A model generated the notes under the pieces. That model saw only the letters and a list, made by a program, of their open reading frames with translations, did no database searches and had not been told where the DNA came from. Of a DNA stretch of 64,000 nucleotides, positions 8,422 to 63,818 are shown piece after piece. A program made the position numbers and the translations under genes. Source of the DNA: Bryobacteraceae bacterium (GTDB lineage Bacteria; Acidobacteriota; Terriglobia; Bryobacterales; Bryobacteraceae); assembly GCA_019752335.1 (NCBI GenBank), contig JAIEMJ010000024.1, positions 62,001 to 126,000 of the forward strand, read 5' to 3'. Numbering within the stretch: position 1 is the first letter of the stretch; each line of letters opens with the position of its first letter.

Positions 8422-10011
8422 CTAGAAGCGGCTAACGATGCCGTAGGCGGCGGGACCGGCCGTGCTGATCGCGTCGAGCGTCCGGAAGCCTTCGCGGAAG
8501 TAGAACTGGTACTGGGCGGGGCGGGAGCTGAGGTTGAAGGTGAGCGTGCCGCCGGTGCAGTCGGCTTCTACCTGGTAGCTGCCGCGGTCGCTTTCCACGC
8601 GGGCGACGCTGCCGTCCTCGCCCAGATTCGAAGTGGCGAGGATGCCGAGGCGGCCGGCGTTGGCGGTGAGGAGTCCGACGAGGCCGTAGGCTTCGCGGGT
8701 GAAGTTGGGTACGCGTTGCAGCTTGGCGCTGTAGAGACCGGAGACCAGGGTCAGCGGGTCAACGCCCACGGGGCAAGCGGTGACGCCGGCATGCGCGCTG
8801 CCGGAGGCGCCGCGGCCTTCGCGAGTGCTGACCAGATACAGGGAGCGGCCGTTGTTGTAGAACCAGAAGTCGTACTGCATGGGGAACGACGAGAGGTTCA
8901 TGGTGAGGGTGCCGCCGGTGCAGTCCGGGAAGATCTGGAAGCTACCGGCGTCGCCTTCGAGGCGGATGGCGCCGGGGGATTGTACCTGGTTCCCATTCAG
9001 CAGCAGGGAGGTGGCGTTGATGGCGAGGGCGCCGGAATTGGCCGCCACGAAACGCCCCGCGATACTGAATTGAGCGTCGAAAGCCGCAGTTTTTTGGTGC
9101 GTTTGGGCGTTGAAGGTCCAGGCATTGATGCCGCTCAAGAGCGAGAGAGGATTCGCCGGGCAGCCGACGGCCGAGGCGCGGCTCACCACTCCCAGAATGG
9201 TGCGATCGCTAGTGCTGATCACGTCCAATTCCTGGAAGCCGGCCCGGAAGTAGAACTGGTACTGCTGCGGCAAGGAGCCGAGGTTGAAGGTGAGCGTGCC
9301 TCCCGTACAATCGGCATTCACTTGAAAGCGGCCCGGACCACTCTCCAGACGCGTTACTCCATGCACTCCACCTTGGCTCGAAGTCTGTGTGATCGCGAGA
9401 AGGCCGAGCGGGTTTCCGGCCAGACCCTGACCGAGGCTGGCCTCGAAACGTCCGGCTGCCGCGTAGGAACTAAAAGCCGAATTGAGTTCTCCGCGTAGGT
9501 TGAAGGCGTAGGGGCCGGAAAGCAGGGTGAGCGGGTTGACTCCCGCACAGCCGGCGACGCCAAGGGTCGCGCTGCCAGTGGCCGTCCTGCCCGGTGAAGT
9601 GCTGATGAGATAAAGGGAGCGGCCGCCGTCGACGAAGACGAAGTCGTACTGCATGGGGAACGACGAGAGGTTCATGGTGAGCGTACCGCCAGAGCAATTG
9701 TCGTTGATTTGGTAGCGTCCGGCGTCCTGCTCTTCACGCGTGGTGCTCCGACCAATAAAACCAAGTGTGCCCAAAGCCGAGGTGGCCGTGATGGTGAGGA
9801 CGCCGTTCGGGCTATTGGCTGCTCCGGGTGTGGCGGTGAATTGGCCCGCGACGACAAAAGCAGGTTGCCCAGCGGCGGCATTGTTCGTCTGGACGTTGAA
9901 GGTCCAGGTGCCGCTGAGGGCGGTGAGGGGGTTGGCGGGGCATTGGCCGTAAAGCGGGGTCCCGGCGGCGAGGGTGGTGAGCAGGAGCGTCTGCCAGAGT
10001 TGTTTTCGCAT
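8422..10011 (-). CDS. Secreted protein of four beta-rich modules in ABAB order
   Basis: The product is 529 residues from ATG 10011, preceded by GGAAG about 10 bases upstream. The frame is open further upstream but without a signal sequence. A signal peptide (to LYGQ) is followed by four modules of about 125-130 residues, each starting NPLT/SLLSG and ending with a C(T/S)GGTLT(M/F)NL motif and a YxFxF stretch. Modules 1 and 3 share SFPMQYDF...GRSLYL(I/V)ST; modules 2 and 4 share QYQFYFR(A/E)GF and end in GVVSR or GIVSRF. Each module has paired cysteines. I do not recognise a named domain; comparable repeats occur in acidobacterial secreted proteins. It is probably exported or surface-located and structural or adhesive; function unknown. 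Confidence 0.8.
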   Translation of the reverse strand: MRKQLWQTLLLTTLAAGTPLYGQCPANPLTALSGTWTFNVQTNNAAAGQPAFVVAGQFTATPGAANSPNGVLTITATSALGTLGFIGRSTTREEQDAGRYQINDNCSGGTLTMNLSSFPMQYDFVFVDGGRSLYLISTSPGRTATGSATLGVAGCAGVNPLTLLSGPYAFNLRGELNSAFSSYAAAGRFEASLGQGLAGNPLGLLAITQTSSQGGVHGVTRLESGPGRFQVNADCTGGTLTFNLGSLPQQYQFYFRAGFQELDVISTSDRTILGVVSRASAVGCPANPLSLLSGINAWTFNAQTHQKTAAFDAQFSIAGRFVAANSGALAINATSLLLNGNQVQSPGAIRLEGDAGSFQIFPDCTGGTLTMNLSSFPMQYDFWFYNNGRSLYLVSTREGRGASGSAHAGVTACPVGVDPLTLVSGLYSAKLQRVPNFTREAYGLVGLLTANAGRLGILATSNLGEDGSVARVESDRGSYQVEADCTGGTLTFNLSSRPAQYQFYFREGFRTLDAISTAGPAAYGIVSRF

Positions 10012-14536: not shown

Positions 14537-14560
14537 ACCCCGCCGCGTGAGCGGCGGGGT
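14537..14560 (-). repeat. CCC-NNCGC hairpin repeat, copy 1 (reverse)
   Basis: ACCCCGCCGC, loop GTGA, GCGGCGGGGT: a perfect stem. Read on the minus strand it has the family form CCCCGCCGC-TCAC-GCGGCGGGG. It faces a second copy 60 bases downstream. Confidence 0.65.
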
Positions 14561-14580: not shown

Positions 14581-14648
14581 TTTGTTGCCGGGTTTTGCGC
14601 ATGAAAATGGCGAAACAAACCCACCGCTCACGCGGTGGGCTGTTTGGC
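14581..14648 (+). repeat. CCC-NNCGC hairpin repeat, copy 2
   Basis: The hairpin CCCACCGC-TCAC-GCGGTGGG (14620-14639) is preceded by TTGCCGGGTTTTGCGC and GAAAATGGCGAAAC and followed by CTGTTTGGCG. The same conserved left flank and hairpin, with compensated stem changes, recur at 54305-54380 and (reverse) 56868-56930, showing that the unit is about 60-65 bases long. Confidence 0.7.
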
Positions 14649-14673: not shown

Positions 14674-14754
14674 CGAACCCCGACCGTGAGGGAGGGGATT
14701 TCGGCAGGATGAGGGTGAACGCCGCGCCATCCCCTCCCTTACGGTCGGGGTTCG
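14674..14754. repeat. Long inverted-repeat element upstream of fmt
   Basis: A 25-base arm beginning CGAACCCCGACCGTGAGG is matched by its inverse at 14730-14754, with one difference that becomes a G-U pair in RNA, around a 31-base centre. An element with the same arms but a different centre sits at 63720-63796, upstream of rsmG. It ends 10 bases before the fmt ATG, leaving no room for a normal Shine-Dalgarno site outside it. It behaves like a small non-coding repeat or MITE-like unit. Confidence 0.8.
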
Positions 14755-14764
14755 TTAGCGAGTG

Positions 14765-53614: not shown

Positions 53615-54088
53615 ATGAAGACGAACGCCGTCCGTTTGCTCGAAACGATGGGCATTTCGCATGAGTTGCGTTCTTACGAGGTGGACGAAGAGCACCTGGA
53701 TGCGATCACCGTGGCGGGCAAGGTGGGCTTGCCGCCGGAGCAGGTCTTTAAGACGTTGCTGGTGCGGGGCGATCGCGAGGGTTTCTGCTTCGCCGTCATC
53801 CCCGGCAATATGGAGCTCGATCTGAAGGCGCTCGCCAAGCTCAGTGGCGACCGCAAGATGGAGTTGGCGCCGCTGAAAGAAGTGCACCCGCTGACGGGCT
53901 ACATCCGTGGCGGCGTCACGGCGCTGGGCGCGAAGAAGGACTACCCGGTGTATCTCGACGAGACGGCGCAACTGTGGGAGGTGATGTCGATATCGGCCGG
54001 GGTCCGCGGGACGCAGATTCTGCTGCACCCCGAGGCCTACGTGCGAGCGACGCAGGCGCGGATGGGGGAAATCGGACGCTTTGGGTAG
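53615..54088 (+). CDS. ybaK: Cys-tRNA(Pro) deacylase YbaK/EbsC
   Basis: The product is 157 residues. YbaK hydrolyses Cys-tRNA(Pro) and prevents mistranslation. Signatures: MKTNAVRLLETMGISHELRS, FKTLLVRGD, FCFAVIPGNMELDLKALAK, GYIRGGVTALGAKKDYPVYL and the late SAGVRGTQILLHPEAYV. Length and motifs are normal. Downstream is a 700-base stretch with no intact gene. Confidence 0.92.
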   Translation: MKTNAVRLLETMGISHELRSYEVDEEHLDAITVAGKVGLPPEQVFKTLLVRGDREGFCFAVIPGNMELDLKALAKLSGDRKMELAPLKEVHPLTGYIRGGVTALGAKKDYPVYLDETAQLWEVMSISAGVRGTQILLHPEAYVRATQARMGEIGRFG

Positions 54089-54304: not shown

Positions 54305-54371
54305 ATGCTTGTTTTGCCGGGGTTTTCGCGGGAAAGTGGCGGAACGTGCCCCATCGCTCACGCGATGGGCT
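54305..54371 (+). repeat. CCC-NNCGC hairpin repeat, copy 3
   Basis: TGCTTGTTTTGCCGGGGTTT, GGGAAAGTGGCGGAACGTGC and then the hairpin CCCATCGC-TCAC-GCGATGGG (54350-54369). Left flank and hairpin match 14581-14639 with compensated stem changes (ATCGC/GCGAT here, ACCGC/GCGGT there). The apparent 5' end of a group II intron lies two bases after the stem. Confidence 0.75.
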
Positions 54372-54782
54372 GTGTGCGCAGCATGGGCAGAATTTCGTTG
54401 GATGACAGGAGACTATCGGGGCCGATGACGGCAACCGTAGCGAAGCGCAAGACGTAGCCGTGAGGTGAAGCTGAAAGAAGCGCGGAGCAAACTCACGACC
54501 GTAGGAACACGAACCGGCAGCGAGGCAGTAGTGCGGGAGGCGAACTGGCAGCCAACAGCGAAGCCCAAAAGTCATCCAGTCCGCGCAGGGTAGAGCCGGA
54601 CGGCACGTGGGGAAAGATTCTGCGCCTTACCCGGGGAGATCTCTCCGGGGAGAAGTCAGCCGAGGCCGTAGTAAGGAAGAAGGCTGGTAACGCCGCTGGC
54701 TCCAACCGCCGGATGCGGAAAACCGCACGTCCGGTGGTGTGGTCGGGTCACCGGGCCTTACCTCCCGGTCACCCGACCCGAT
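54372..54782 (+). mobile_element. ORF-less group II intron (group IIC-like)
   Basis: A 5' end GTGTG fits the GUGYG consensus. Interior segments GACGGCAACCGTAGCGAAGC, GACGTAGCCGTGAGGTGAAG and AACACGAACCGGCAGCGAGG and GGAGAAGTCAGCCGAGGCCG are typical of bacterial group II introns. Domain V is complete at 54706-54737: lower stem CCGCCGGA/TCCGGTGG, a two-base CG bulge, upper stem TGCGG/CCGCA with an AAAA loop, with CGC (not AGC) as the catalytic triad. Domain VI is a hairpin (54741-54778) with a C-C mismatch and no bulged adenosine. No reverse transcriptase is present. The 3' end at CCGAT (54782) is approximate. About 411 bases; splicing ability unknown. Confidence 0.78.
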
Positions 54783-54788
54783 CACGAG

Positions 54789-56810
54789 TTATAAGCCAGG
54801 GTTCTCGTTCATCCGGGCTAGCTCTTTCTTCAGGAAATCGAAGTCGGCGAAGGGGGCGCCGCCCAGGCGGGACCAGCGGACCTGGCCTTGCTTGTCGATC
54901 AGGATTGTGGCGTGAATCTCCATCTCCTCGAAGTCGTCGTAGGCGAGGAAGCGCTTGGCGTTGGCGCGGGTGGGGTCCGAGAGGAAGTGGATGCCCTGGT
55001 AGGCTTCGTCGCCGAGCAGGGCTTTGTTGGCGGCGGCGGCGTTGGGGCTGACGGCGAAGACGTCGGTGTCGAGTTCCTTCCATTCGCCCGCTTTGGCGCG
55101 CAGGTCGCGGAGTTGCTTCAGGCAATGCAGGCACTCGCGGCCGAGGTAGAAGACCAGGATCGTGTTGCGCCCCTTTTGCGCCGTGAGCGACCGCGCTTTG
55201 CCGTCCACATCCTGCGCGTCGAGCGCGGGGGCCAGGAAGGGCGTCCAGTGATCGGGGCCGAAGCTCGCGAGTGAAGCCGTGTCGTAGGGGCGTTGCGGAC
55301 GGGGGAAATGCGGCGCGGTGATTTGGCCGGCTTTTTCGAGGCCCGCCAGGGCGAAGCGATCATTGCGCGTCAAGGTAAGGGCCTTCTGGAAGGCGCGAAT
55401 GGCGAGGTCCTTACTGCCGTTTTCGAGATAGGCGCGCCCGAGCGCATTGAAGAGGACCTCGGGATAGGCGGGCGGATCGTTGTCGCCTTTTTGCGCCTCG
55501 TACTGCTTGTCGGCGGCCTCGCTGAGCAGGCCCAGGCCCAGGAGCGTCTCGCCTTTCGACAGCGCGAGGCGGGCCTTGAGGTCGAGCGTCATGATGCGGT
55601 AGAGGTCCTCGACGGCTTTCTCCTTGTCGAGCTTGGCGAGCTCCTTCATGGCCTTCTCGGCGTCGTCACGATTGCCGAGGGCGAAGTGCGCTCGGGCCTC
55701 GACATAAGCCTTTAAGAGCTTGTCGGCGGGAATCTCGCGCCAGGGAATCGTCTTGGCGTCGAGCAGATCGGTCCAGCGTTCGTACTTCACCAGCGACCGG
55801 GCGAGCGAGCGGATGCCTTGCGAATGCGGGCTAAACGGGGCGTCGCCGTTGGAGTTGGGGTCCTGCGGGGCGCGGATGAGTTCGCGGGCGCCGGCGATGG
55901 CGGCTTCGGGCTGGCCGAGTTGCTCCTGAATGTAGTTGAGGTAGTGCCGGTTGTGGCCCCAGTTCCAGTAGTTGAAGGGGAACACCTGCTGGGCGTGCAT
56001 GTTTTTGACTTCGACGCGGGTGGCGGAGTCCATGGCGATGGCCGCCTCCTGCCACATGCCGACTTGGGCATAGATGTGGCCGGGCATGTGGAGGGCGTGG
56101 CCGAGGCCGGGGGCGATGGAGCCGTAGCGGGCGCAACTGTCGAGCGCGGCTTCGGGCTCATGGTAATTCCAGTTGTGGATGCGGTAGTGATGCACGCCGG
56201 GATGGCTGGGTTGGCGGGCTTGTACTTCGCGCAGGACGAGTTCGGTGCCGTAGCGGGCGTCGCCCATGTTGGCCATGGCCAGCAGGAGCCGGGCTTCGTC
56301 GTCCTCGGGGTACTTGAGGCAGAGGGTTTCGAGGATCTTCTTGTACTCTTTGTTGCGCTCGGTGTAGTCGTCGCCGCGGTCGCGCAGACGGTCGGTGTGG
56401 TCGCGCGCGACGAGGGCGTCGATGTAGAGGCGTTCGCGTTCGCTGACGCTGGCTTTGCGCTTGGCGGCTTCGAGGATAAAGGCTTCGCTGCGCTCGTCGC
56501 CGGCGGCGCGGGCGAGCCCCCAGTAGCACATGGCGTTATCGGGCTCGAGCTTCAGGCACCAGCGGAAGGAGCGTTCGGCCTCAAAGTCGGAGAAGGAGTG
56601 CAGCAGGGTATTGCCCTGGTTGAACCACTTTTGCACTTCGGGGTTGCGATGGGTGATGGGGAAATGCGTGGCGCCGATGCCGGTGAGGACGGCGGGCTTG
56701 GTGCGGGGGCCCGAGTCAAAGGGTTCGCCTTTGTGCGAGTGGCCGGCGCGGATCTCGGCGGCGGGGGCGAGCAGGGGGAGGAGGAGAATGGCGAGGAAGC
56801 GGAGGGTCAC
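54789..56810 (-). CDS. Exported TPR protein with C-terminal thioredoxin-fold domain
   Basis: The product is 673 residues from GTG 56810; the frame is open 47 codons further but only this start begins the signal peptide (LRFLAILLLPLLAPAA). N-terminal two-thirds: TPR-like helical repeats (FNQGNTLLHSFSDFEAERSF, AMCYWGLARAAG, HMPGHIYAQVGMWQEA). C-terminal 170 residues: AhpC/TSA-type redoxin with a CxxC motif C-L-H-C in GRECLHCLKQL, then FAVSPNAAAANKALL and TILIDKQGQVRWSRLG. It would be a periplasmic thiol protein attached to a helical scaffold. The 3' end abuts the group II intron. Function otherwise unknown. Confidence 0.85.
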   Translation of the reverse strand: MTLRFLAILLLPLLAPAAEIRAGHSHKGEPFDSGPRTKPAVLTGIGATHFPITHRNPEVQKWFNQGNTLLHSFSDFEAERSFRWCLKLEPDNAMCYWGLARAAGDERSEAFILEAAKRKASVSERERLYIDALVARDHTDRLRDRGDDYTERNKEYKKILETLCLKYPEDDEARLLLAMANMGDARYGTELVLREVQARQPSHPGVHHYRIHNWNYHEPEAALDSCARYGSIAPGLGHALHMPGHIYAQVGMWQEAAIAMDSATRVEVKNMHAQQVFPFNYWNWGHNRHYLNYIQEQLGQPEAAIAGARELIRAPQDPNSNGDAPFSPHSQGIRSLARSLVKYERWTDLLDAKTIPWREIPADKLLKAYVEARAHFALGNRDDAEKAMKELAKLDKEKAVEDLYRIMTLDLKARLALSKGETLLGLGLLSEAADKQYEAQKGDNDPPAYPEVLFNALGRAYLENGSKDLAIRAFQKALTLTRNDRFALAGLEKAGQITAPHFPRPQRPYDTASLASFGPDHWTPFLAPALDAQDVDGKARSLTAQKGRNTILVFYLGRECLHCLKQLRDLRAKAGEWKELDTDVFAVSPNAAAANKALLGDEAYQGIHFLSDPTRANAKRFLAYDDFEEMEIHATILIDKQGQVRWSRLGGAPFADFDFLKKELARMNENPGL

Positions 56811-56867
56811 GATTCCAGTGTAGTCGGCGGGAGACCCAGCGCCTGAATGTGTGCAATGAACCACTAG

Positions 56868-56930
56868 CCCACCTCGTAAGAGGTGGGGCACCGTAGCCGA
56901 TTTCCTCCGAAAAACCCAGCAAAAATGGCA
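56868..56930 (-). repeat. CCC-NNCGC hairpin repeat, copy 4 (reverse)
   Basis: The stem CCCACCTC-GTAA-GAGGTGGG (56868-56887) is perfect; on the minus strand it is preceded by TTTTTGCTGGGTTTTTCGGA and GGAAATCGGCTACGGTGC, the family left flank. A further copy, hairpin only, follows in the opposite direction. Confidence 0.7.
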
Positions 56931-56939
56931 TAATTCGTA

Positions 56940-56968
56940 AACGTGCCCCATCGCTGACGCGATGGGCT
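56940..56968 (+). repeat. CCC-NNCGC hairpin repeat, copy 5
   Basis: AACGTGC then CCCATCGC-TGAC-GCGATGGG-CT (stem 56947-56966), a perfect 8-bp stem. The left flank is short because copy 4 lies next to it in the opposite orientation, making a back-to-back pair in the intergenic space between the TPR and M20 genes. Confidence 0.7.
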
Positions 56969-60956: not shown

Positions 60957-60976
60957 CCCACCGCTGACGCGGCGGG
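60957..60976 (+). repeat. CCC-NNCGC hairpin repeat, copy 6
   Basis: CCCACCGC-TGAC-GCGGCGGG: an 8-bp stem with one A-C mismatch, followed by CTGTTTG as in copy 2. The flank is not well kept. It cuts into the 3' end of a gene relic on the minus strand. Confidence 0.55.
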
Positions 60977-63674: not shown

Positions 63675-63719
63675 TGGCGGGAATTGGCGATCCCCGAATA
63701 TGGGCAGACGTGCCCGTAA

Positions 63720-63796
63720 CGAACCCCGACCGTGAGGGAGGGGACGCGCCTGAGGGGAGTCTAGGAGGCTATCCCCTCCCTTACGGTCGGGGTTCG
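63720..63796. repeat. Long inverted-repeat element upstream of rsmG
   Basis: Arms start CGAACCCCGACCGTGAGG and end with the inverse at 63772-63796 around 27 bases of unrelated centre; TAA before and TTA after extend the symmetry. Same arms as 14674-14754. It lies between mnmG and rsmG, in the spacer that normally has no such element. Confidence 0.8.
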
Positions 63797-63818
63797 TTAG
63801 CGGGCCGGCGAGGGCTAC

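Follow-up and report, generated by a model that had tools for sequence, protein, structure and literature searches.

The sequence at 54372-54782 of the window is a group II intron, and it is very likely an RT-deleted copy of a group IIC intron that was retro-inserted 3' of a REP-like hairpin by means of the stem-loop and EBS1 pairing. The window is the whole 64,000-nt stretch that was analysed and corresponds to C15:62001-126000, that is, part of one of the 55 contigs of a 7.2 Mb Bryobacteraceae genome (Table 1). In the mechanism that we propose, retrotransposition would have placed the intron immediately 3' of the dispersed hairpin, this DNA hairpin replacing the terminator stem-loop that is normally recognised by IIC introns, and EBS1 AGCC would have paired with GGCT, the last four bases of the repeat unit. 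An RT-bearing ancestor would have lost its RT gene through a deletion between TAACGC repeats, and splicing would be hydrolytic, perhaps aided by an RT in trans. On a wider scale, an acidobacterial IIC lineage would land safely between genes at dispersed palindromes that are specific to the host, and would shift its target by a change of EBS1.

Table 1. Positions of the intron, its parts and the hairpin repeats in the window
Feature	Position	Strand	Remarks
Group II intron assigned to group IIC, RT-deleted copy, 411 nt (GUGUG...CCCGAU)	54372..54782	+	
Ribozyme core, Rfam group-II-D1D4-3	54454..54625	+	RF02001, 93.7 bits (cut-off 32)
EBS1 = AGCC, pairs with IBS1 GGCT	54550..54553	+	covariation across 80 introns
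TAACGC, RT-ORF deletion scar between direct repeats, domain IV	54688..54693	+	comparison with L150, L154 and the C24 end
Domain V, CGC triad 54707-54709, two-nt bulge 54728-54729	54705..54738	+	
Domain VI	54740..54782	+	branch A at 54776 paired (unpaired probability 0.0)
IBS1 = GGCT, final 4 nt of the 5' exon	54368..54371	+	GG within the 3' arm of the hairpin
REP-like hairpin CCCATCGC-TCAC-GCGATGGG, target stem in the 5' exon, dispersed repeat	54350..54369	+	-14.2 kcal/mol, z -5.6
REP-like hairpin copy, left arm of inverted pair with 14620	14539..14558	-	
REP-like hairpin copy, without intron	14620..14639	+	
Related hairpin, left arm of inverted pair with 56947	56868..56887	-	
REP-like hairpin copy, without intron	56947..56966	+	
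REP-like hairpin copy, without intron	60957..60976	+	

Structure and ends of the intron

The intron begins with GTGTG at 54372 and closes with CCCGAT at 54782, and these ends, which are common to its copies, agree with the GUGYG 5' end and the AY 3' end of group II introns. Domain V forms a hairpin of 34 nt that contains a two-base bulge, and it has CGC where most introns have AGC; the CGC triad is characteristic of group IIC (PMC7923331). The first-pass annotation, which was made from the letters alone, had described a GUGYG-type 5' end and a CGC-triad domain V with a two-base bulge, and all of these are present where it placed them. It had also made the call depend on a group II covariance match in the core, and this was obtained far above the Rfam cut-off (Table 1), while the D5-D6 model RF00029 gave 36 bits at 54704-54782, slightly below its cut-off of 40. 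The upstream neighbour is a YbaK-type tRNA-editing gene (53615-54088, +) and the downstream neighbour is a TPR/AhpC-TSA gene on the opposite strand (54789-56951, -), and since the intron is in the short gap between the two, no gene is interrupted. By sequence comparison the lineage is group IIC, because the RTs encoded by its relatives are closest to the GsI-IIC RT: the RT of the related intron L154 and that of a more distant intron on C5 of this genome scored 434 and 495 bits, respectively, against the GsI-IIC RT compared to 114 and 145 bits against LtrA, and both of them pass the group II RT/maturase model.

When the junctions were examined across the genome, it was found that the 5' ends of four introns directly adjoin the hairpin (GGGCT^GTGTG), namely those in the window, at the ends of C4 and C45 and at the start of C24, and the last three, all at contig ends, join the repeat at the identical point GGGCT^GTGTGC. 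Nine 3' ends read CCCGAT (the window, C24, C42, C28, C41, C51, C30 and two on C37). Thus, the boundaries first proposed for the window copy, 54372 and 54782, fall at the points where the other copies also begin and end. The 3' flank is GTCCGG after four intron copies, ten uninterrupted repeats read GGGCT^GTCCGG, and the 3' flank of the window copy is CACGAG. These shared ends, together with the empty repeats, fix both splice sites as well as the point of insertion, and they refute a chance adjacency of intron and hairpin. Most of the other copies in the genome are at contig ends and their bodies are unseen. On C37, two intron copies stand one after the other, a single base separating the 3' end of the first from the second.

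Loss of the RT gene

No RT frame was found in the window copy (54372-54782). The description of it as an ORF-less intron therefore stands for this copy but not for its family: when 257 genomes of the same order were searched, the relatives L150 and L154 were found to bear an RT gene in domain IV, and the domain IV comparison shows that the window copy has lost the RT gene between two TAACGC repeats. From this comparison we conclude that it descends from an RT-bearing family through deletion of the RT gene and is not a distinct ORF-less kind. L229 and L265 are further RT-deleted copies, whose structures differ. As in class C, the RTs of the RT-bearing relatives are without an endonuclease domain, the C5 RT having only RVT_1 plus GIIM. 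In this genome, the final RT codons (PSDLAAA-stop) are preserved at the C24 end, a small number of matching bases at the C42 end and an RT remnant in a copy on C37. Because the C24 and C42 ends keep sequence from the 3' end of the RT gene, it is probable that the remaining copies in the genome have an RT and that the assembly broke them, with contigs ending inside them, and the same 3'-end fragments indicate that a helper RT of the family probably exists in the genome and is unassembled.

It is unlikely that we are dealing instead with an autonomous ORF-less family that was spread by the helper RT of an unrelated intron, for example the 461-aa C5 RT, which is intact and of the IIC type. Bacterial ORF-less introns do usually co-occur with related RTs (PMC4424553), and the assembly has no full RT of the window-like clade (H, see below): a search of the genome for it gave only the C5 RT (48% identity), remote RTs and the C37 fragment. 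However, the RT C-terminal codons on C24 and the matching bases on C42 point to RT-bearing copies that were collapsed in the assembly, C37 has its RT remnant, and the window copy is diverged, being about 92-93% identical to the other copies in the genome, and carries a unique mutation in domain VI. A loss of the RT gene from a member of an RT-bearing family is the reading that we retain.

Domain VI and splicing

It had been noted earlier that domain VI is without a bulged adenosine. This is correct for the window copy (Table 1), which is the only one to have GGTCGGG instead of GGGAGGG, a change that pairs the branch adenosine, but it does not extend to the family, as the corresponding adenosine, near -7, has an unpaired probability of 1.0 in each of the five relatives that were folded and in the distant C5 copy. 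Judged from these folds, the pairing of the branch adenosine results from a mutation that only the window copy carries. IIC ribozymes without their protein splice by hydrolysis and the protein is needed for branching (PMC7161350). With an intact ribozyme core, EBS1 and domain V, hydrolytic splicing of the window copy is plausible; it may still splice, and the mobility lariat is probably beyond it. Since lariat formation would be impaired, further mobility of this copy probably is as well.

The hairpin at the 5' junction

The hairpin that ends two bases 5' of the intron has a perfect 8-bp stem and a 4-nt loop. At up to 3 mismatches it has nine matches in the window compared to 0.13 expected, and genome-wide there are 120+112 matches compared to 11+8 with a reversed-pattern control, the pattern being nearly palindromic so that some places are counted on both strands. 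The earlier suggestion that this hairpin is a dispersed repeat is thus confirmed. Many of its copies are inverted doublets about 50-80 nt apart that are REPIN-like and have the outer ends GGGCT(CT), and CT directly follows the stem in 57 of 58 tabulated copies. Numerous dispersed short palindromes, often in inverted doublets, are typical of REP/REPIN elements, and in this respect the hairpin is REP-like. There are 20 Y1_Tnp genes in the genome, and at 18 of them no hairpin copies are nearby; the only trace among the hairpins is a remnant of Y1_Tnp (C4:37025) that has no full-length frame, and no intact RAYT was found beside them.

The inverted pair at 56868-56966 overlaps the start of the ORF at 54789-56951 (-), the true start of which is probably further in. 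A second palindromic dispersed repeat, TAACGAACCCCGACCGTGAGGGAGGGGA ... TCCCCTCCCTTACGGTCGGGGTTCGTTA, is found in the window at 14674-14760 and 63717-63802 (97-100% identical), and 8461-9726 of the window holds three direct repeats of 129 nt with 65-100% identity and spacings of 363 and 774 nt.

EBS1-IBS1 pairing

To the 80 introns from the 257 genomes that have a readable EBS1 loop, aligned gap-free in the loop, we compared the last four exon bases. Watson-Crick pairing with EBS1 was 72.8%, whereas it was 30.1% with the exons shuffled and 15-33% in other loop registers, and none of 5000 shuffles, which ignore relatedness, reached the observed pairing. The matched pairs in the clade of the window intron include AGCC/GGCT (the window), TGGG/CCCA (nine introns) and TGGC/GCCA and also CCTG/CAGG, AGGG/CCCT and TAGC/GCTA, and the existence of several different matched pairs does not depend on a correction for relatedness. 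There are exceptions, in that EBS1 TAGC of a C37 copy mismatches its exon GATG and L167 mismatches too. A DNA stem-loop directly upstream combined with an EBS1-IBS1 pairing of 3-4 bp, as is seen here, is typical of group IIC. What counts against this arrangement is that in this genome only 2 nt separate the hairpin from the intron, compared to 3-4 nt in most relatives, so that two base pairs would need to open for IBS1.

Probable targeting of dispersed hairpins across the clade

Two clades of introns can be distinguished, one that resembles the window intron (H) and one that resembles the C5 intron (T). In 16 of 25 H introns a perfect stem of at least 6 bp ends no more than 6 nt away, compared to 13% of random positions, and these stems mostly end 3-4 nt before the intron. 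The 24 H rows in the tree form an Acidobacteriota clade (SH-aLRT 100) in which all 24 are at non-terminator sites; the tree was a quick one, rooted for drawing only and with some long outgroup branches. In Clostridia, Burkholderia and Variovorax, introns that share the 5' motif are mostly behind terminators, and because sister and outgroup introns are mostly placed in this way, the switch to repeats is likely derived. The introns of G147, G056 and G057 sit behind another hairpin, GCAGCCANGATTGGCTGCCCCA, which at up to 3 mismatches has 160, 59 and 153 copies in these genomes, respectively, and 0 in the reversed control. In the acidobacterial MAG JACQZR (NC_groundwater_1572) at least 22 intron 5' ends are in distinct flanks, 15 of them after GCAGCCANGATTGGCTGCCCCA, and the 5' exons of all 22 sites end in CCCA or CCTA; this MAG appears to be the same as G057, because the L164 insertion site is common to both. 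The pattern GCAGCCANGATTGGCTGCCCCA has no match in the genome studied here, which argues that the repeats are host-specific. The first-pass annotation had raised the possibility that the hairpin repeats of this genome serve as intron targets, and the four 5' ends, the empty sites, the EBS1-IBS1 match and the same habit across the order all bear this out.

These data can be set against the reading that this is an ordinary terminator-targeting IIC intron, the hairpin merely acting as a terminator and the repeat being incidental. IIC introns are known to lie after terminators (PMC4424553, PMC8919778), and 31 of 57 T introns of the same order do follow a T-rich run, but a T-run precedes none of the 25 H introns, the window copy included, whose target is a dispersed repeat hairpin in place of an intrinsic terminator. 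Moreover, the target hairpins are shared repeats with tens to hundreds of copies, and EBS1 matches the ends of the repeat units (GGCT, CCCA) and not a T-tract, which makes this reading quite improbable. That intron and hairpin are a single composite mobile element moving together, as the identical junction in four copies might suggest, is scarcely credible, since 54 of 58 tabulated hairpin copies are followed by something other than an intron, empty and filled repeats have a common 3' flank, unrelated hairpins are used in the relatives, and upstream of the repeat the 5' flanks are not alike. Insertion next to a repeat that exists independently of the intron is the reading that we prefer.

Within the T clade, a subclade of introns in five genomes (L137, L140, L142, L146 and L147) shares the target GTCCGCCGCGCCAGCGGCTTCGTT, which was examined as a further dispersed repeat and has 8 copies in G031, 0-2 in the other genomes and none in the control. 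The C5 locus itself (L041, C5:52000-64000) is an accumulation of group II introns and RT fragments, in which a C5-type intron immediately follows the 3' end of a different intron (CCCTACCGCGA^GTGTG); this junction recurs in L135 (G242). L051-L054, L061 and L062 are D5-D6 pieces, located at several contig ends, of a second intron family with an AGC triad, and two such pieces are about 0.2 kb apart on C52. The contig end of C42 (L086) carries an apparent Illumina adapter, AGATCGGAAGAGCA, which is an assembly artefact.

Comparison with known systems

The terminator-type IIC introns GsI-IIC, O.i.I1 and Ta.it.I1 share with the window intron the CGC triad and the use of a stem-loop with an EBS1-IBS1 pairing of about 4 bp, and they share with its relatives an IIC-type RT without endonuclease and a D6 branch A at -7. 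They differ from it in that the window target, a palindromic repeat with dispersed copies, has no U-tract and in that the window copy has no RT and a paired branch A. The IIC-attC introns of integrons are likewise a IIC sub-lineage specialised on a DNA hairpin that is not a terminator, but here the target is a REP-like repeat, IBS1 is GGCT or CCCA and not TTGT, and no integron appears to be involved. In Pseudomonas putida KT2440, 2 of 9 group II intron copies are at REPs (Tobes and Pareja 2006, PMC1525189), and this resembles the window in that a group II intron is beside a repetitive extragenic palindrome; there, however, it is a minority association, whereas here it involves a whole clade with matched EBS1 in multiple genomes and a MAG with at least 22 sites. 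According to a 2015 review, bacterial introns have three kinds of target, namely homing sites, terminators and attC (PMC4424553), and a 2022 survey locates class C introns just after terminators (PMC8919778). We found no literature joining Solibacter to group II introns in a search that covered subscription papers thinly, and a prior description is possible.

That a IIC lineage uses host-specific dispersed palindromes, which would be a new variation on the target sites of known IIC introns, comparable to IIC-attC, is well supported by the sequence comparisons. It is also probable that this lineage has left terminators for host palindromes as a fourth target specificity, changes in the four EBS1 bases repeatedly re-aiming it at whatever repeat abounds and RT-deleted copies going along as passengers. 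If this is true, a retroelement makes its living on mobile repeats of a different class and, where usable terminators are few, finds harmless landing places by reading the ends of intergenic repeats. The natural series of matched EBS1/IBS1 pairs can be used to test how DNA hairpins are selected by IIC introns, and the matched pairs could yield targeting rules for hairpin-directed retro-insertion. It is also a warning that short assemblies conceal such introns because contigs break inside them.

Similarity of the hairpin to Acido-Lenti-1

The window hairpin resembles the first hairpin of Acido-Lenti-1. Like the window repeat, REP/REPIN elements and Acido-Lenti-1 are short GC-rich hairpins in tens to hundreds of copies that form inverted doublets and have GGGCT conserved after the stem. 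Acido-Lenti-1 has a second hairpin, whereas the window hairpins are without one, and they score 26.6-28.6 bits against RF01687, the target hairpin at 54350-54369 giving 26.6, compared to a cut-off of 37. A formal assignment of the hairpin to Acido-Lenti-1 was therefore rejected, as it is below the threshold and the second hairpin is missing. Acido-Lenti-1 has been linked in general to group II introns, and this link is unsupported here because none of the 19 best Acido-Lenti-1 loci in the relatives has a group II intron within about 1.5 kb. Acido-Lenti-1 is filed as an sRNA; its loci, L179-L197 among others, reach at least 20 copies in several genomes and are often inverted pairs about 140-175 nt apart, so that it looks like a mobile REPIN-type element and not an sRNA gene.
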